DNA of 64,000 nucleotides from Tessaracoccus timonensis (GTDB taxonomy: Bacteria > Actinomycetota > Actinomycetes > Propionibacteriales > Propionibacteriaceae). The stretch is from positions 992,001-1,056,000 of the forward strand of contig NZ_LT996886.1 of the NCBI RefSeq assembly GCF_900343145.1. The letters are read 5' to 3'. Positions 1-7,931 of the stretch are shown here, piece after piece. The translations under genes and the position numbers were made by a program. Numbering within the stretch: the first letter of the stretch is position 1; each line of letters opens with the position of its first letter. The notes beneath the pieces were generated by a model, which searched no databases, was not told the DNA's origin, and saw nothing but the letters and a program-made list of their open reading frames with translations.

Positions 1-615
1 CAGTCGGCCATGCTCGAAGCGATGCAGGAGAGGCAGACCTCCATCGGCGGTGTCACGCACGAGCTGCCGGACCCGTTCGTCGTGATGGCTACCCAAAACC
101 CCATCGAGGAAGAGGGCACCTACGTGCTGCCGCAGGCGCAGATGGACCGCTTCCTCGTCAAGGAAGTCGTCAACTACCCCGCCGCGGACGCCGAGGTGGA
201 GGTGCTCCGTCGCGTTCGCTCGGGCGTGTTCGAGCAGCCGGCTCCCGCCGTCGCATCGATCGACGACGTGCGTCGCCTGCGGGCGATCACGCGACAGGTG
301 CACGTCGACGAGGCCATCGAGCGCTACATCGTCGAGCTGGTGAACGTGACCAGGCGCCCGGCGGACTTCCTGCAGTCCGACACCGCAAGGTGGATCGAGT
401 ACGGCGCCAGCCCGCGCGCGTCGATCGCGTTCCTGCAGATCGCCCGCGCACACGCGCTGCTGCAGGGCAGGCCCCACGTCATCCCCGACGACATCACCGC
501 GATGCGGCACGCGATTCTGCGTCACCGCATCGTGCTGACCTTCGAAGCGATGGCGGAACAGGTGCCCGTCGACGAGATCGTCGACGCAGTGTTCAACGCG
601 GTGACGGCCCCGTAA
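1..615 (+). CDS. MoxR-family AAA+ ATPase, C-terminal part (cut by window start)
   Basis: The open frame runs in from base 1 with no start inside the window, so only the C-terminal 204 or so residues are present. The segment begins with QSAMLEAMQERQ and carries ATQNPIEEEGTY followed by LPQAQMDRF, the Walker B-to-sensor region and arginine-finger area typical of MoxR ATPases. Walker A lies upstream, outside the window. The rest is the helical lid domain. MoxR proteins act as chaperone-like ATPases that work with VWA-domain partners on metal-centre insertion or envelope maturation. The following genes (DUF58, small membrane protein, two VWA proteins, TPR protein) form the classical Bat-type operon and support the call. 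The stop is one base before the next start codon, so translation is probably coupled. Confidence 0.93.
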   Translation, partial: QSAMLEAMQERQTSIGGVTHELPDPFVVMATQNPIEEEGTYVLPQAQMDRFLVKEVVNYPAADAEVEVLRRVRSGVFEQPAPAVASIDDVRRLRAITRQVHVDEAIERYIVELVNVTRRPADFLQSDTARWIEYGASPRASIAFLQIARAHALLQGRPHVIPDDITAMRHAILRHRIVLTFEAMAEQVPVDEIVDAVFNAVTAP

Positions 616-616
616 C

Positions 617-1495
617 ATGGCCCGGCTCACTCGTGTGCGCACCGAGGTGATGCTCGCTACCCGAGGCAAGGTGAGCGGGTGGCTCGACGGTGCCCACCCG
701 TCGGTGAACGCGGGGCGTTCGCTGGAGTTTCACGACGTGCGGGAGTACGTGCGCGGCGACGACGTCGCCGACATCGACTGGAAGGCGTCTGCGCGTCGTG
801 GCGAGCTGCTGGTGCAACGGCACGTGGCCGAACGCCGCACGACGCTGCTCGTCGCGCTTGCCACGGGACAGTCGATGGCGGCGATGGCCGGCCCGTCGAC
901 GCTCAAACGTGAACTCATGCTCGATACCGCCGCAACACTCGCGAGCCTCGCGCTGGCCGGCGGCGACTACGTCGGCATGCTGCATTGGGGGGCCGCTGGC
1001 GCTCTCGCGGCGCGCCCAAGCACCAGAGCCGTGCGGGTGGAGCGCATGCTCACGCAGGCGGAGCGTGCCTGCGATCCCACTTCCCCCGACGGCGACCTCC
1101 CGGTGCTCTTGGAGCGCACCGGCACGTCCATTCGGCGCCGAGGGATCGTCGCGGTGGTCACGGGCGACATCGACGTCGACGCCAACCTCGAGCTGCATCT
1201 GCGCCGGCTCGCCGTGCAGCACACCGTGGTGCACGTGGTGGTGCCCGACGTCGACCCCACCGACGAGCGCATCTCGCGCCCGGTGCACGACCTCATCGCA
1301 GCGCGCGAACTCCCGCGCGCGCTGTTGCGTGATCCCGCGCTGGCCACCGCGTGGCGAGCCGACGTGGCAGACCGCGCGACGCGTCGGAGCGCAGCACTGT
1401 CGAGGCTTGCCATCCCGACGGTGACCCTCACCCCCGGCAGTCCTGTTGTGCCGCAGCTGCTTTCCTGGTTGAGGAGTGTGCGTCGTGCTGCTTGA
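617..1495 (+). CDS. DUF58 domain protein of the MoxR/Bat operon
   Basis: A 292-residue soluble protein. The N-terminal third carries the DUF58 signature, with SLEFHDVREYVRGDDVADIDWKASAR around residues 35-60 (arginine/aspartate/tryptophan-rich) and then a VWA-like alpha/beta domain that lacks an obvious complete MIDAS. DUF58 proteins are encoded next to MoxR and are thought to be scaffold or adaptor partners of the ATPase; the biochemical role is not established. The start ATG lies one base after the moxR stop. The gene end overlaps the next gene by about 11 bases, so the whole set looks like one transcript. Confidence 0.9.
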   Translation: MARLTRVRTEVMLATRGKVSGWLDGAHPSVNAGRSLEFHDVREYVRGDDVADIDWKASARRGELLVQRHVAERRTTLLVALATGQSMAAMAGPSTLKRELMLDTAATLASLALAGGDYVGMLHWGAAGALAARPSTRAVRVERMLTQAERACDPTSPDGDLPVLLERTGTSIRRRGIVAVVTGDIDVDANLELHLRRLAVQHTVVHVVVPDVDPTDERISRPVHDLIAARELPRALLRDPALATAWRADVADRATRRSAALSRLAIPTVTLTPGSPVVPQLLSWLRSVRRAA

Positions 1496-1952
1496 ACTGC
1501 CGCCCATCGAACCTGTCGTGGCTGCTTCCTGGTGGTGGTGGCTGGTTGCCGTCGGGGGGCTCGTCCTGGCGCTCGGGGTGCTCGCCGTCGGCGTGTGGCG
1601 CTGGCGCGCGCTGCGCCCGTCGCCGCCGGAGGCGGACACGTCGCTGGAGCGGCTGCGGGAATCCGCGCTGGAGCAGGTGGGTGCCGATGCGCGCCTAGCG
1701 CAGCCCAAGGACGCTGCCCAGGCGCTCAGCCGGACGGTGCGGCGCTTCGTCGGTGTGGCTTCCGGGGGGAGCGCCGACTACGAAACCGCAAGCCAGCTGG
1801 CTGCTGCCGCGGAGCGTGACCGGCGGCTGGCTCCCGTCGCGGCGTTGGTGAGCGACCTGCAAGAGGTGAGCTTCTCTGCATCCCCCGGCGACGACTTCGA
1901 CGTGGCCGCGCACGCGGAGCAGGCGCGGGAGGTGATTCGCGCATGGCGTTGA
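1485..1952 (+). CDS. Small single-pass membrane protein of the Bat operon (DUF4381-like)
   Basis: About 155 residues. A tryptophan-rich segment (ASWWWWLVAV) opens one transmembrane helix at roughly residues 15-40, followed by a charged, helical cytoplasmic domain. I chose GTG 1485 because GAGGAG (1470s) is properly spaced in front of it; GTG 1476 is possible. Size, topology and place between DUF58 and VWA genes match the small DUF4381-type membrane protein found in many MoxR/Bat operons, though sequence similarity alone is weak. It overlaps both neighbours (11 bases upstream, 10 bases downstream), as expected for a coupled operon. Confidence 0.7.
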   Translation: MLLELPPIEPVVAASWWWWLVAVGGLVLALGVLAVGVWRWRALRPSPPEADTSLERLRESALEQVGADARLAQPKDAAQALSRTVRRFVGVASGGSADYETASQLAAAAERDRRLAPVAALVSDLQEVSFSASPGDDFDVAAHAEQAREVIRAWR

Positions 1953-2905
1953 GTCAGCCGTGGTGGGGTGTGGCGGTGATCGTCGCCGCCACACTGGTGG
2001 CCCTGGTGGCCTGGTGGTGGCCGCGCCGTCGGACTCCGGCGGGAGAGGCGCTGCTGTTCAGCGCGGGCGCCAGACTGCGCGCGTTGCCGCAGTATCGCGA
2101 CGCGGCCCGGCGGCGAATGCGGTGGCTCACGGTGGAATTCCTCGCGGTGGCCGTCGCGGTGGGCGGGGCGGCGCTCACGGTGGCGCGCCCCGTCGACGAA
2201 CGCCAGCTGCCGTCAGCGCGCAGCAACCGCGACGTCGTGCTGTGCATGGACACGTCGGCGTCCATGTCGTCGGTGGTGCAGGACGTGCTGGGCGCCTACA
2301 AGCAGCTGGCGGAGCGCCTCGACGGAGAACGCATCGCGCTGGTGATGTTCGACGCCTCCGCGGTGACTTCCTTTCCCCTCACCGACGACGCCAACTACAT
2401 CGCAGAACAGCTCGACGCCGCGTCGCAGGAAGTGGGCGCGGGGCCGGTTCGCGGCACGCAGGTAGGTGACGTCGGAAGCTCGCTCATCGGCGACGGGCTC
2501 GCGAGCTGCCTACAGCGCTTCGACACCACCGATCCGGGCCGCTCGCGCACCGTCGTGCTCGCCACAGACAACCAGACCTCGGGTAAGAGCATCTTCACAT
2601 TGGATGAGGCGGCACAGCACGCAGTCAGCCAGCACACGCTCGTGTTCGGCATTGCCCCGAACGACAACCAGGTCGCCGCCACGCAGGCCATGACTGCCGC
2701 GCTGCAGCTGACCGGGGGCGACACGCTCGCCCTCGAACCCAACGCTCCGCTGGCGAGCATCGTCGACGCGGTCGAGCGCACCCAGGCCCGCGAGCTGGAA
2801 GATCCGCCCCGCACCGACGCCGAGCCCCTCCTGTGGCCGGGCATGGCCCTGCTGAGTCTCGGAGCTGCGGGGGCCGCCGTCGCACGAAGGAGGGTTGGGG
2901 CATGA
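1943..2905 (+). CDS. VWA-domain membrane protein (BatA-like)
   Basis: A 320-residue protein with transmembrane helices near residues 8-27 and 62-82, a VWA domain (about 95-290) and a C-terminal hydrophobic helix. The MIDAS motif is intact: DTSAS at residues 103-107, preceded by a hydrophobic beta strand (RDVVLCM). This is the layout of BatA-type proteins, which display a metal-dependent adhesion domain at the membrane and partner with MoxR ATPases. The start overlaps the preceding gene by 10 bases; the end overlaps the next VWA gene through an ATGA. Confidence 0.9.
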   Translation: MALSQPWWGVAVIVAATLVALVAWWWPRRRTPAGEALLFSAGARLRALPQYRDAARRRMRWLTVEFLAVAVAVGGAALTVARPVDERQLPSARSNRDVVLCMDTSASMSSVVQDVLGAYKQLAERLDGERIALVMFDASAVTSFPLTDDANYIAEQLDAASQEVGAGPVRGTQVGDVGSSLIGDGLASCLQRFDTTDPGRSRTVVLATDNQTSGKSIFTLDEAAQHAVSQHTLVFGIAPNDNQVAATQAMTAALQLTGGDTLALEPNAPLASIVDAVERTQARELEDPPRTDAEPLLWPGMALLSLGAAGAAVARRRVGA

Positions 2906-3837
2906 CCTTCGACGTGCAACCCGCCGCGCTGGCGCTCGTCACCGTCGCGCTCGTGGTGACGCTGTGGTGGCAACGCCGGATGTGGCGCGACATCCACACC
3001 TGGCTCCGCCTTGCGGCGCTGGTGTTGCTGGCTGGCGTGGCGCTCCAGCCGGGCTTCGAACACGCCTCCGCAGAGGAGGCCCCCACCGGCATGGACGTGG
3101 TGCTGCTCGTCGATCGCACCACGTCGATGGCCGCACAGGATTACGACGGCAACCGCCCCCGCATGGAGGGGGTGGCCGCCGACGTCGAGGCGCTCGTCGG
3201 CACCATGCCGGGCGCGAGGTACACCGTCGTGACTTCGGACAATGAGGCGCGCGTGGCCGCTCCCTGGACCACCGACGGCGCCGCCGTCATCACGCTCGCC
3301 CGCACGATGGGTTGGCGCGAGGAGGGCCTGGGCACCGGCTCCGACATCGCCGCCGGGCTACCGCTGGCCAAACAGCTCCTGCAGGATTCGGCGGCTGAGC
3401 GTCCGGGTGTGCGTCGATACTTCGTGTACTTGGGTGACGGCGAGCAGATCTCCAAGCACAGCCCGGCGTCGTTTGCACCGCTTCGGGAGCTCGTCGACGA
3501 CGCGCTCGTGCTGGGCTACGGCACTTCCGCTGGTGGCGTGATGGCGATGCATGTGGGCACCGACGAGCTCGTCACGCGCGACGGGAAACCGGCCAAGTCG
3601 AAGATTGACGAGGCGGCGCTGCGGACGATCGCGGAGCAGACGGGCGGCTCATACCAACACCGCACCGCCCCCGGAGCGTTGGAGGGTTGGACACCTGCGG
3701 CCGGCGCCAGCGTGTCGGAGGCTGCTCACCGTGACACCTCGCTGGCCTGGTGGCTCGCCGTCGGAGCTGCGACGATGTGGTGCGCAGACCTGGCCGTGGC
3801 CGCGCGTCGGATGCGGGGCGCGAAGGAGGAGCTGTGA
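2902..3837 (+). CDS. Second VWA-domain membrane protein (BatB-like)
   Basis: About 311 residues from ATG 2902, which overlaps the previous stop (ATGA) and has AAGGAGGG just upstream; a longer reading frame to 2833 exists but is unsupported. Two hydrophobic helices lie in the first 50 residues, a VWA domain follows from about residue 63, and a final helix sits near the C-terminus. The MIDAS is DRTTS (71-75) instead of the canonical DxSxS: the first serine is replaced by threonine, so metal coordination may still work but is atypical. Tandem VWA genes are usual in Bat operons. Confidence 0.88.
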   Translation: MTFDVQPAALALVTVALVVTLWWQRRMWRDIHTWLRLAALVLLAGVALQPGFEHASAEEAPTGMDVVLLVDRTTSMAAQDYDGNRPRMEGVAADVEALVGTMPGARYTVVTSDNEARVAAPWTTDGAAVITLARTMGWREEGLGTGSDIAAGLPLAKQLLQDSAAERPGVRRYFVYLGDGEQISKHSPASFAPLRELVDDALVLGYGTSAGGVMAMHVGTDELVTRDGKPAKSKIDEAALRTIAEQTGGSYQHRTAPGALEGWTPAAGASVSEAAHRDTSLAWWLAVGAATMWCADLAVAARRMRGAKEEL

Positions 3838-4496
3838 AGCGTTCACGTCTGGGTTGGCTGGTGTGGCCAGCGCTCGCCGCGGTGCTCGTCGGGGGTGCGG
3901 GTGTGGCACTGCTCACGTGGCAGGCGTCGATGTGGCTGGGCGACGAGGCGATACGCGAGGGGCGGCCCCTGGATGCCGAGCGCCACTACTCGCGGGCGGT
4001 GCGGTTGCCCGTCGAGGGTTGGAAGGCGCCGTTCAACCGCGGGGTCGCGCGGTACGAGCAGGAGAAGTGGGACGCGGCCGCGAGCGACTTCGAACTCGCG
4101 GCGCTGCGGGCTCCCGTCGAGCACGATTGCATGATTCGGCTCAACTGGTCGACGGCGTTGGAGCGCTCTGCCGACGCGCTCCGCCAGCACGACGACCTCG
4201 ACAGCGCCACCGCTCGTTACCGAAGCGCGCTGTTGGTACTGGCCAGCGCGGCGTGCGACGACCAGCAGCGCACGGCAAGCGGGCAGTCGGCGCAGTCGCA
4301 GAAATCGCAAACCCAGCAGCGGTTGGCGGGGAAGGCTGGGCAGAGCAAGGAGGAGCCGACGGGTGAGCCTCCCGCAGACGACGTCGACCGCGAGCAGGAG
4401 ATCGACGAGCGCGCCGAGCAAGCGCAACAAGAGCGGCAACGGGCTGAGCAGAAGCCAGATCCTCGCACAGGCGGCGAGGGAGAACGCACCTGGTAG
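3834..4496 (+). CDS. TPR-repeat membrane protein (BatC-like), last gene of the Bat operon
   Basis: About 220 residues from GTG 3834, overlapping the previous stop through GTGA with GAAGGAGGAG upstream. One N-terminal transmembrane helix (about residues 8-32) is followed by helical repeats at about 40-150 that resemble tetratricopeptide repeats (WLGDEAIREGRPLDAERHYSRA and the next units), then a low-complexity tail very rich in Gln, Glu, Arg and Lys. TPR proteins close many Bat operons and probably act as extracytoplasmic scaffolds for the VWA proteins. A cobalamin riboswitch begins within about 50 bases of the stop, so the operon ends here. Confidence 0.85.
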   Translation: MKRSRLGWLVWPALAAVLVGGAGVALLTWQASMWLGDEAIREGRPLDAERHYSRAVRLPVEGWKAPFNRGVARYEQEKWDAAASDFELAALRAPVEHDCMIRLNWSTALERSADALRQHDDLDSATARYRSALLVLASAACDDQQRTASGQSAQSQKSQTQQRLAGKAGQSKEEPTGEPPADDVDREQEIDERAEQAQQERQRAEQKPDPRTGGEGERTW

Positions 4497-4539
4497 CCCG
4501 GATGATTGGGCGAGCCCTGCCTGCCACCGCTGGTGTAAA

Positions 4540-4640
4540 ATTCGGCACGACCGTGCGTCGGGGGAATGTGGTGCAAATCCACAGCTGACCCGCAACCGTA
4601 ACGAGCAACGCTCGAAGCCGGAATGCCCGCCCGTGGTCAT
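4540..4640 (+). promoter_or_regulatory. Cobalamin riboswitch (B12 element)
   Basis: The core reads GGTGCAAATCCACAGCTGAC followed directly by CCGCAACCGTA (4570-4600), which matches the conserved B12 box; the 3' part (GAAGCCGGAATGCCCGCC, 4613-4630) matches the terminal conserved block. A TAAAAT hexamer at 4536-4541 is a plausible -10, which would place the transcript start near the 5' edge of the element. Downstream, TGAAAC (4682-4687) can pair with GTTTCA (4708-4713) immediately before the AAGGAG of the next gene, a possible expression platform acting on translation. Such elements repress uptake or synthesis genes when cobalamin is plentiful. The exact 5' boundary is uncertain. Confidence 0.93.
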
Positions 4641-4728
4641 GTTGTAACACCGTCGAGGTCTGCGGTGGAGCGATTTCTTGGTGAAACAGCTCCCAACCGT
4701 GAGGACCGTTTCAGCCAAGGAGTCGTAT

Positions 4729-6573
4729 ATGACCTTGCAGCGAAATCGCGTCCTGGCGTTGCTGATGGCACTCATGCTCGCCATTGGCACACTAGGCACC
4801 GCCCCCGCTCATGCAGACGCGAAACAAGATTCCGTCTCGCAGGCAGCCGATTGGCTCGCCACCACCTGGAAGGAAAAGCCAGGCCAGTACTTTGCCGCCG
4901 GCACCATCGCCGACGGCATCCTCGCCCTGAGCGCTGCGGAAGCGCATCCCGACGTCGTCGAGTCGATGCTCCGAGCGCTGCATGAGAAGACGCCGAGCTA
5001 CGTCGGTACCCCGGACGCAAAGCCCAACCCGGCTGGGCAGGCAAAGATCATCATCACGCTGCTCGCGTCCAACCAGGACCCCCGCACGTTCCTGCCTGGG
5101 CGCGACCTCGTCGCTGAGCTGGTGGACTACGCCAAGGCGAATTCGCAGGACACCAAGGATTTCTGGGCCCCCTACCTGATCGCCATTGCGCTCTCGCGGG
5201 CGGGCGAGCAGGTGCCGCAGTCCGTCATCGACAACATGCTCGCCAACCAGCAGGACGGCGCCTTCGGGTACACCTACAACGGCAAGTTCAACGCCGACCC
5301 CGACTACACCGGCATCGGCATCATGGCCATGAATCTGTTGTCGACGGAAGCCCCCGACCGAGCCACGAGAAACATAGCACTCGACAGCGCGCTGGATGCC
5401 ATCGATTGGGCACAGAACCCGGCCAACCAGAAAACCGACGCCAACGGCAACACGTACTGGGCGACGTACTCGTCGGCAAACAGCACGGGCATGGTCGCCG
5501 GGGGCCTCGCCGAGGCCGGCGAAAACATTGAGTCGCCGGTCGCGTACCTCGTCGACCAGCAGAAGAAGACCGGCACCGGGGCGTGGTCGAACGTGCACGA
5601 TGGCACCAGGAGCGACGTCATGGCCACTACCCAGGCCATCTTTGCTCCCGCGGGTAAGGGCTACGCCACCATCAAGAGCACGCAGGTGAAGCCCATCAAC
5701 TTCAACCCCGCGCCTGATCCGGAGCCGCGGAAACCCGCTACCGCTGACGTTGCGAAAGTAAAGCCTGTCGGCGTACCCGCAAACATCTGGGGCACCGTCG
5801 ACACCGACAAGCCCGTGAAGGTGTGGACGGAGGTGAAGCTGCCCAACGGCACGTGGTCCAAGTCACAAGAACGCACCACCAACGCCAACGGCTACTACGT
5901 CATCCCCCTCACCTACGGCCTGCACACCGCCGGCACCTTGAGCTGGCGCGTCGCAGTCCAGCATGCTGTTGGTGACATCGAGTACACGCCGACGGTTGAA
6001 CAGCGCCGCGTCGTTTCCGTCACCGCGTCTACCGCTGGGCGCGCTGCCGTCGGTACTACCCCGAACGTGTGGGGCACCGCCCGCGGCGCAAGCAACGCGC
6101 GCGTGTGGACAGAGGTGAAGCTGCCCAACGGCACGTGGTCCAAGTCACAAGAACGCACCACCAACGCCAACGGCTACTACGTCATCCCCCTCACCTACGG
6201 CCTGCACACCGCCGGCACCTTGAGCTGGCGCGTCGCAGTCCAGTCCGGCTCCTCTGTGGTACGCAGCGCACCGTTCAACTTCCAGCGCGTAGCTACGGTG
6301 ACCAGCGCATCGGCGGGTACCGCTGCCGTCGGTACTACCCCGAACGTGTGGGGCACCGCCCGCGGCGCAAGCAACGCGCGCGTGTGGACAGAGGTGAAAC
6401 TGCCTAACGGCACGTGGTCGAGATCACAAGAACGCACCACCAACGCCAACGGCTACTACGTCATCCCCCTCACCTACGGCAAGTACACCGCCGGCACCAC
6501 CACCTGGCGCGTCGGTGTGCAAGTAGGAAACACCATCACCTACGGCGCAGCGTTCAACTTCGTGCGCCGCTGA
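4729..6573 (+). CDS. Secreted transcobalamin-like alpha-barrel protein with three C-terminal repeats
   Basis: 614 residues from ATG 4729, chosen over an upstream GTG (4681) because AAGGAG at 4717-4722 precedes it and it gives a clean signal peptide ending in AHA at about residue 30. Residues 35-325 form helical repeats of the prenyltransferase/squalene-cyclase-like alpha6/alpha6 type seen in the alpha domain of intrinsic factor and transcobalamin (ADGILALSAAEAHPDVVESM, AGQAKIIITLLASNQDPRTF, YTGIGIMAMNLLS). The C-terminus has three near-identical units of 93-94 residues, each with ARVWTEVKLPNGTWS and NANGYYVIPLTYG, probably Ig-like and possibly for cell-wall attachment. There is no anchor, so the protein should be exported. 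Being under a cobalamin riboswitch suggests extracellular B12 capture. Cobalamin binding itself is inferred. Confidence 0.82.
   Translation: MTLQRNRVLALLMALMLAIGTLGTAPAHADAKQDSVSQAADWLATTWKEKPGQYFAAGTIADGILALSAAEAHPDVVESMLRALHEKTPSYVGTPDAKPNPAGQAKIIITLLASNQDPRTFLPGRDLVAELVDYAKANSQDTKDFWAPYLIAIALSRAGEQVPQSVIDNMLANQQDGAFGYTYNGKFNADPDYTGIGIMAMNLLSTEAPDRATRNIALDSALDAIDWAQNPANQKTDANGNTYWATYSSANSTGMVAGGLAEAGENIESPVAYLVDQQKKTGTGAWSNVHDGTRSDVMATTQAIFAPAGKGYATIKSTQVKPINFNPAPDPEPRKPATADVAKVKPVGVPANIWGTVDTDKPVKVWTEVKLPNGTWSKSQERTTNANGYYVIPLTYGLHTAGTLSWRVAVQHAVGDIEYTPTVEQRRVVSVTASTAGRAAVGTTPNVWGTARGASNARVWTEVKLPNGTWSKSQERTTNANGYYVIPLTYGLHTAGTLSWRVAVQSGSSVVRSAPFNFQRVATVTSASAGTAAVGTTPNVWGTARGASNARVWTEVKLPNGTWSRSQERTTNANGYYVIPLTYGKYTAGTTTWRVGVQVGNTITYGAAFNFVRR
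5761..6570 (+). repeat. Three in-frame tandem repeats of about 280 bp
   Basis: Units start near 5761, 6043 and 6322. Corresponding positions are 282 and then 279 bases apart (94 and 93 codons). The stretch beginning AGGTGAAGCTGCCCAACGGC is almost identical in all three, with long runs of perfect identity including synonymous positions, so the units were duplicated or homogenised recently. The units differ mainly in the linker between the conserved blocks (for example HAVGDIEYTP versus SGSSVVRSAP). Confidence 0.92.
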
Positions 6574-6590
6574 TTACGGCAAGCGAACCT

Positions 6591-6619
6591 GGGGCCGGTA
6601 CTGTCAAGGTACCGGCCCC
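6591..6619 (+). terminator. Perfect intercistronic hairpin, possible attenuating terminator
   Basis: GGGGCCGGTAC (6591-6601) pairs perfectly with GTACCGGCCCC (6609-6619), an 11-bp stem with a 7-nt loop, in the 70-base gap between the two riboswitch-controlled genes. No T-tract follows. It could be a partial terminator, a processing site, or a 3'-end stabiliser that sets the ratio of the two products. Confidence 0.6.
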
Positions 6620-6643
6620 AGTGCCGTATCGGAAGGATCTTCT

Positions 6644-7306
6644 ATGCGCCGTGTGCTCTGTCTCCTCGCCGCACTGCTGTTCTGCGCAGCACCGCTGGCC
6701 GTCGCCGACGACGCGCCGCCCGTCGAGCAACCGTCGAAGGAGGGCAGCAACGCCGTCGGCGCTTGTCTGGGTGCGGGACAGGTGTGGCTGTACGTCACCG
6801 ACGTAGACGGCACCGTCGTCGCGAACCAGTGCGTGGGCACGCCCGACAACGGTGAGGCTGCGCTGCGGGCAGCCAATGTGACGGTTGAGCATGACAAGGG
6901 CGGCATGATCTGTGCGCTCGGCGGGCGCCCCAACCCGTGCCCTAAGACGTTCGACGGCTCGTTCTGGAATTACTGGCACGCGTCGGCCGACAAGGATTGG
7001 GAGTTCTCGTCCAAGGGCGCGAAGGAGTGGAAGCCCAAGCCAGGCACCATCGAAGGCTGGTGCCGCAACAGCAAAGACACGGAGGGGTGCACACCGAAAC
7101 CGCTGCGTGTCGAGATCGACGGGGAACTGCGGCTCCCGTCGGGTGTGTCCGAAGCTGATCTCGCCGACCCGGAGGTGGTCATGCCGGAGCCGGTGCCGGA
7201 GTCTGGTTTCCCCACCGGCACCGTCGTGGCGGTGGGGTTGATCGTCGTGCTTGGCGCGGCTGCCGTGGTGATCGTCAGGCAGCGGCGCCAATCGAGCCAG
7301 GCGTAG
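6644..7306 (+). CDS. Membrane-anchored transcobalamin beta-domain-like (DUF4430-like) protein
   Basis: 220 residues, with GGAAGGA seven bases before the ATG. There is a signal peptide (about 1-21, ending in AVA), an extracellular domain (about 30-150) and a C-terminal helix (about 190-212) followed by RQRRQSSQA, so the protein is type I anchored. The extracellular part follows the DUF4430/transcobalamin beta-domain pattern: GEAALRAANVTVE, GGMICALGG, FDGSFWNYWHAS, DWEFSSKGA and PGTIEGW. Six cysteines suggest disulfides. It follows the alpha-barrel gene in the same riboswitch-controlled unit; together they resemble the two halves of intrinsic factor or transcobalamin. No transporter gene follows, so ligand transfer must involve genes elsewhere. 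The family assignment rests on pattern, not a search. Confidence 0.68.
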   Translation: MRRVLCLLAALLFCAAPLAVADDAPPVEQPSKEGSNAVGACLGAGQVWLYVTDVDGTVVANQCVGTPDNGEAALRAANVTVEHDKGGMICALGGRPNPCPKTFDGSFWNYWHASADKDWEFSSKGAKEWKPKPGTIEGWCRNSKDTEGCTPKPLRVEIDGELRLPSGVSEADLADPEVVMPEPVPESGFPTGTVVAVGLIVVLGAAAVVIVRQRRQSSQA

Positions 7307-7316
7307 GCGAGCCGCC

Positions 7317-7931
7317 TCAGCCTGCCGGGGGCTGCTCGCGCGGCAGCCACATGGCGTAGGTGGGCGACGTGCCTGGAGCAGGGACCTCGCCCATCTCCAC
7401 GAACCCGAACTTCTTGTAGTACTCGACGTTCGCGCGGCTGGATGCTTCCAGGTAGGCGCCCACGCCGTCGCGTCGGGCCTGGTCGACGCCGTATTGCACC
7501 AACGCGGTGCCCACTCCACGGCCGCGCGCTGCGGGCGGCGTGCCCAGGTAGGCCAGGTACCAGTGCGGCACGCGCGGCTGGTGACGGCGCTCCGAGAGCG
7601 TGATGCGCAGGGCGTCGGGGAAGCGGCGGTGCAGCCGCCGCACGTAGAGCGGGAGGTTACGCAGCACGGCGGCCCACGGCGTCGATGCGCCCGGCGACTG
7701 CCACAGCGCCGCGCCGAGCGTCGTCTCCCCATCGACGGCGACCACCGCGCCCGGTCCGGCCGCCAGCATTTCGCTCACCTGCGCCAGCATGAGCGAACGC
7801 AGGCGCTCACGCGTGGAGCCCGCGGGCAGCATGGCGACGATGTGGTCGTCGGTCATGAACGCGTCCGCGAGTGCGCGTGCGGCGTCGCCGCGATTCTCTC
7901 TCGTCACCGGAACGACGGAAAACTCAGCCAT
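7317..7931 (-). CDS. GNAT-family N-acetyltransferase
   Basis: 204 residues. The acetyl-CoA-binding motif A is clear near residues 140-155: HWYLAYLGTPPAARGRGVGT, containing the R/QxxGxG/A signature (ARGRGVG). The C-terminal strand-helix part (YYKKFGFVEMGEV) is also typical, and the proline-rich approach PRVPHWYL is common in small-molecule acetyltransferases of actinobacteria. The substrate cannot be told. The gene converges on the B12-related operon, with only 10 bases between stops. GAGGTGAT upstream of the ATG serves as ribosome binding site. Confidence 0.88.
   Translation of the reverse strand: MAEFSVVPVTRENRGDAARALADAFMTDDHIVAMLPAGSTRERLRSLMLAQVSEMLAAGPGAVVAVDGETTLGAALWQSPGASTPWAAVLRNLPLYVRRLHRRFPDALRITLSERRHQPRVPHWYLAYLGTPPAARGRGVGTALVQYGVDQARRDGVGAYLEASSRANVEYYKKFGFVEMGEVPAPGTSPTYAMWLPREQPPAG

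Follow-up and report, generated by a model that had tools for sequence, protein, structure and literature searches.

We propose that two adjacent genes in an actinobacterial genome encode a transcobalamin-like module of two chains, which captures corrinoids for an ECF uptake system, and we put the probability of this reading at roughly 0.7. The ligand would be cobalamin or another corrinoid, the alpha and beta chains would pair with each other, and their cargo would be handed over to the importer. The proposal is directly supported by the riboswitch, the gene order, the fold of beta, the fold family of alpha, the fusions between the two, and their co-occurrence across the class, ECF genes included. 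Intrinsic factor and transcobalamin are usually regarded as an animal invention, and little is known about how Gram-positive bacteria capture B12 at their surface ahead of import by ECF systems. We found no description of a bacterial two-chain counterpart in the literature searched, a body of work that leaves out most subscription journals.

A riboswitch-led gene pair

The window, by which we mean the whole stretch of 64 kb that was analysed, covers bases 992001-1056000 of a 2.76-Mb genome from the genus that holds Tessaracoccus and Arachnia; judged by the alpha protein, the nearest named relative is T. massiliensis. A cobalamin riboswitch aptamer (RF00174) lies at 4514-4648 on the forward strand, aligned to the consensus over model positions 1-189, with a cmscan score of 41.3 bits (E 5.1e-7) compared with a gathering score of 31.5. 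It is the sole Rfam match within the window, and it bears out the clear cobalamin riboswitch of the original prediction. Folding of the RNA at 4649-4740 (-36.8 kcal/mol, z -3.4) places a long expression-platform hairpin at 4670-4726 (+). The Shine-Dalgarno sequence of the alpha gene, AAGGAG at 4717-4722, falls within its 3' arm (4708-4726). The pairing of this site within the hairpin fits a translational off-switch of the alpha gene, which is the probable function of the element.

The alpha gene (4729-6573, +) starts at ATG 4729 and encodes 614 amino acids. After a gap of 70 bases it is followed by the beta gene (6644-7306, +), which encodes 220 amino acids. The open reading frames, the signal segments, and the transmembrane segment of beta agree with the secreted alpha-barrel protein and type I membrane protein that had been predicted at this spacing. 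Most of the gap is taken up by a second, very stable stem-loop at 6575-6628 (+), found once in the window and without a U tract (-41 kcal/mol for 6574-6643, fold z -6.2); possibly it acts as a differential-expression or stability element that controls the alpha:beta ratio.

Downstream, an open reading frame on the opposite strand (7317-7931, -) reads as a convergent GNAT-type acetyltransferase gene, and on that reading we place it outside the B12 system. It occupies the slot that EcfT-EcfAA'-S genes fill in relatives (compared: L052-L054, L056, L059, L076, and L077). Upstream, window positions 1-4500 hold a block of MoxR, DUF58, vWA, and TPR-type genes between an upstream ECF operon and the alpha gene, and the same block is found at the same position in several Tessaracoccus/Arachnia relatives.

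Gene order and fusions

Both alpha and beta matches occur in 27 genomes of a class sample of 148, and in 24 of these 27 the beta match follows alpha on the same strand at a distance of at most 2.5 kb. Cobalamin riboswitches stand at the head of many such loci. At the non-congener loci inspected, alpha and beta are in separate frames. Together with the adjacency, this indicates that the split pair is the usual actinobacterial form and is not peculiar to this genome.

Fused proteins are found among congeners, and they come in both orders: alpha-beta (L055/L074, L052/L069, and L068) as well as beta-alpha (L053, L054, L072, and L073), often accompanied by an extra, separate beta gene. In the window, by comparison, the two domains are encoded by two open reading frames and do not form one chain. 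The alpha tree pairs the window protein with the T. massiliensis fusion (97/95), within a group that includes another fusion (89/90). Given this grouping with fused relatives, the ancestor of the window alpha may have been a fusion from which the internal beta domain was lost.

The adjacency in 24 of 27 genomes and the fusions in both orders speak for the two domains acting together. They count, accordingly, against the alternative that corrinoid binding and delivery to the ECF importer are the work of beta alone, with alpha serving as a wall scaffold or binding something else and no clamp being formed. That alternative can point to PDB entry 5np4, by its title the human transcobalamin beta domain alone with cyanocobalamin, and to loci such as L140 and L143, where beta and ECF genes occur and alpha was not detected. 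Weighing both sides, we consider it unlikely that beta works alone.

Predicted fold and family of beta

The beta protein has a signal peptide, eight cysteines, and a single C-terminal transmembrane segment (residues 193-211), and is thus a type I membrane protein; its transcobalamin-beta-like domain spans approximately residues 43-145. Structure prediction of beta alone had been suggested as a check, and it gave the expected match. For the beta domain of the window itself, an AlphaFold model built from 15 sequences has a pLDDT of 91.6 and a pTM of 0.87. Foldseek ranks transcobalamin, haptocorrin, and intrinsic factor, together with the Ruminococcus gnavus protein 3u7z, at positions 1-17. In VIA-align, 15 PDB entries, all of them beta domains of these three carriers or 3u7z (Z 8.4), score Z 8.0-9.0, and the next entry, which is unrelated, scores 4.9. 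According to the model, then, the beta domain has the fold of the transcobalamin C-terminal beta domain, and we regard this predicted gap in Z from 8.0 to 4.9 as the strongest single piece of evidence in the analysis.

The family assignment by sequence is a separate matter. The window beta matches NF040672 (the SCO2322 family) at 28.5 bits (E 1.6e-6), below the cut-off of 85, and all 15 beta relatives match the same model weakly, the best at 1.1e-9. PF14478 (DUF4430) gave no match over its gathering score in the window beta, in 14 relatives, or in the whole genome of the window. A sequence tie to bona fide DUF4430 proteins was rejected, with an hhalign probability of 0.2% against two Streptomyces-type DUF4430 sequences, and a beta profile search of PDB sequences returned no reliable match. 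By its sequence, beta is a distant relative of the SCO2322 family and not a member of PF14478. The description of beta as 'DUF4430-like' holds for the fold and fails for the sequence family, in which the PF14478 match that had been anticipated is absent.

One Streptomyces-type genome (G125) connects the two families. Its alpha gene is of the type in our alignment A1 and encodes a protein ending in an LPXTG-like motif; the very next gene exceeds the PF14478 cut-off, and this arrangement suggests that SCO2322-like and DUF4430 proteins can fill the same slot. In a congener, a 1503-residue open reading frame (L062, 9047-13558) carries tandem beta-type domains, two of them clear and one weaker.

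A second alternative concerns what is captured: while regulated by B12, the pair might take up another ligand, for instance cobalt or a complex of it, or a corrinoid other than cobalamin, for example cobinamide. The riboswitch tells of regulation by B12 and not of cargo; ECF systems import cobalt too (PMC2667541); and 3u7z carries the PDB title 'putative metal binding protein'. However, both predicted folds match proteins that grip cobalamin between precisely these two domains, and the window alpha contains no cysteine at all. We judge another ligand to be quite improbable.

Predicted fold of alpha

From alignment A1 of 10 relatives, the alpha protein is divided into a hydrophobic signal peptide (approximately residues 1-29), a predicted alpha6/alpha6-type barrel (approximately 30-325), and wall-type repeats (approximately 340-614). 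Residues that do not vary in A1 include D164, N223, T225, and Q274. The C-terminus contains three tandem repeats of 236 nt each (5725-5960, 6007-6242, and 6286-6521, all +), 77-100% alike in the repeat search. The same repeats occur in other secreted proteins of this genome, among them, by sequence reading, a nuclease-like protein, a probable L,D-transpeptidase, and a probable D,D-carboxypeptidase. Since alpha has its repeats in common with secreted proteins of the latter two kinds, it is probably associated with the wall through them. Those two proteins belong to a cluster of secreted proteins with alpha-type repeats (L146). Other alpha proteins end in an LPXTG-type or plain membrane anchor; the fused alpha-beta proteins L052 and L055 have LPKTGA and LPSTGV as their last residues, with no membrane tail beyond the LPXTG-like motif.

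Single-sequence searches of Pfam, NCBIfam, and PDB sequences gave no transcobalamin or intrinsic factor match for either alpha or beta. The profile of the alpha family, when compared with PDB sequences, reaches only squalene-hopene cyclases, which are members of the alpha/alpha toroid superfamily. The transcobalamin barrel belongs to that superfamily by fold. PF01122 is absent from the window alpha in a Pfam search and matches 1 of 10 relatives at E 0.0045. By sequence, alpha is thus closer to squalene-hopene cyclases than to PF01122, and this counts against a clamp.

We read the fold of alpha from the model of a one-chain relative, L074, whose alpha is 45-46% identical to that of the window and is followed by a beta domain. 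The AlphaFold model has a pLDDT of 82.4. In Foldseek, all 13 PDB matches at E<=1e-3 are transcobalamin or haptocorrin, with the best at 8e-9 and the first other protein at 8e-3. VIA-align places intrinsic factor first (Z 22.1) and gives transcobalamin alpha a Z of 21.8 over 257 residues at 3.2 A; cyclases and GH76 enzymes come next, at Z of about 20-21. The barrel alone is therefore unspecific, all the more because alpha6/alpha6 barrels are common. When alpha and beta of L074 are taken jointly, they do not superpose on holo carriers (rmsd 21-23), so that the model, with this placement of its domains, does not predict the clamp geometry. Judged by the homologous domain of L074, the window alpha may have a transcobalamin-type alpha6/alpha6 barrel.

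A terpene-cyclase function was judged unlikely for alpha. It is very improbable that alpha works outside the cell as an enzyme, whether related to squalene cyclases and prenyltransferases or to glycosidases, with a function unrelated to beta. Despite the profile matches to squalene-hopene cyclases, alpha is secreted, its relatives fuse it to transcobalamin-type beta domains, and the DXDD motif of the cyclases is not kept among relatives, which have DPDYT, SPDDT, DADFV, or QPDDT in alignment A1.

The original prediction of a transcobalamin-like alpha and beta on two genes is supported by the folds, the fusions, the adjacency, and the link to the riboswitch; it needs amending in that the split is not peculiar to this genome, that beta is SCO2322-like by sequence, and that the unit includes an ECF importer, whose genes are found at another place in this genome.

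ECF importer genes

The gene order alpha-beta-EcfT-EcfAA'-S is found in Acidipropionibacterium timonense and in Aestuariimicrobium; of these two loci, the Aestuariimicrobium one has an over-threshold cobalamin riboswitch in front of it. EcfT-EcfAA'-S genes also follow beta in congeners and in many other actinobacteria, several of these loci being headed by a cobalamin riboswitch. In the window no ECF genes adjoin beta, so that the pair does not share an operon with an ECF-type cobalamin importer, and T. massiliensis is likewise without ECF genes directly after beta.

The sole matching EcfT, EcfAA', and S genes of this genome lie at 1.9525-1.9560 Mb, 0.95 Mb away. Ahead of this cassette is a riboswitch of the cobalamin type, sub-threshold at 23.6 bits (L011, 8248-8398, -). 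Between this weak riboswitch and EcfT, at about 1.956 Mb, there is a stub open reading frame of 39 codons that resembles a signal peptide; it may be what is left of an alpha or beta gene that has been lost. Compared over the full length, EcfAA' of this distant cassette is 57% identical to a Streptomyces-type copy, as against 48-51% for congeners (one partial match reaches 55%). Since it is nearest to the Streptomyces-type copy, a simple relocation of the cassette from the window locus is not secure, and replacement is possible.

A second riboswitch-led operon (L007, 8714-13633) stops 0.4 kb short of the window. Its products are two secreted proteins, of which one is beta-like, and proteins resembling EcfT, EcfA, and an S component; the beta-like protein is a distant relative of the window beta (hhalign probability 87%, E 4e-6, for an alignment of two sequences). 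The earlier statement that no B12 importer is adjacent is accordingly correct inside the window and has to be qualified by this upstream operon and by the ECF genes that follow beta in relatives. The other cobalamin riboswitches of the genome stand in front of genes for cobalamin synthesis, a BtuF-like ABC system, and a ribonucleotide reductase of apparently B12-dependent type; the reductase and the synthesis genes are named by sequence reading.

Proposed function

When cobalamin is scarce, the riboswitch would leave the ribosome site of alpha free, and both proteins would be made. The alpha barrel would be exported and probably kept in the wall by its repeats, and the small beta domain would be anchored to the membrane. 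Cobalamin would lie between the mouth of the barrel and the beta domain, or would be taken by one of them and then enclosed by the other, before being passed to the S component of an ECF-type ABC importer, presumably the one encoded at 1.95 Mb.

A wider proposal is possible, which we consider less likely than not: that throughout Actinomycetia ECF importers are pre-loaded with corrinoids by a surface-anchored homologue of the vertebrate B12 carriers that consists of two chains; that these chains became fused in both orders inside a single genus; and that the one-chain carriers of animals represent one form of a bacterial clamp that is older and has two parts. If our reading is true, it would give a role to two actinobacterial families whose annotation is poor, the secreted squalene-cyclase/prenyltransferase-repeat proteins and SCO2322. 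A bacterial two-chain B12 clamp tied to riboswitches and ECF importers would, moreover, be a directly testable system.

Comparison with known systems

The loci of the SCO2322 family (NF040672) in Streptomyces-type and other actinobacteria have the same gene order and the same two kinds of protein as the window. In those loci the family member lies beside a squalene-cyclase/prenyltransferase-repeat gene and ECF genes, whereas no ECF genes adjoin the pair in the window. Proteins of DUF4430 (PF14478) have a beta fold in common with the window beta and no sequence match to it.

Animal carriers consist of a PF01122 barrel and a DUF4430-type C-terminal domain. We do not claim membership of the transcobalamin/intrinsic factor family for the window pair, because PF01122, PF14478, and a single chain are all absent from it.

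ECF-type import of cobalamin is established for ECF-CbrT of Lactobacillus delbrueckii (PMC5997447). The loci described here resemble it in having EcfT, EcfA, and S-like genes, recognised from the genes alone, under cobalamin riboswitches; they differ in the putative extracytoplasmic alpha/beta binding pair, of which the cited portions of that report give no description (PMC5997447).

The C-terminal domain of transcobalamin is called DUF4430 (PMC4350170). Compared with the animal carriers, the window pair is made of two chains, is surface-anchored, bacterial, and riboswitch-controlled, and matches no carrier family by sequence; the animal carriers, for their part, deliver to receptors and not to an ABC importer. 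Transcobalamin, intrinsic factor, and haptocorrin nevertheless have what appear to be the same two folds, which some congeners join in one chain in the same order, and the window pair, as far as it can be judged from its sequence, would work like these animal carriers of B12.
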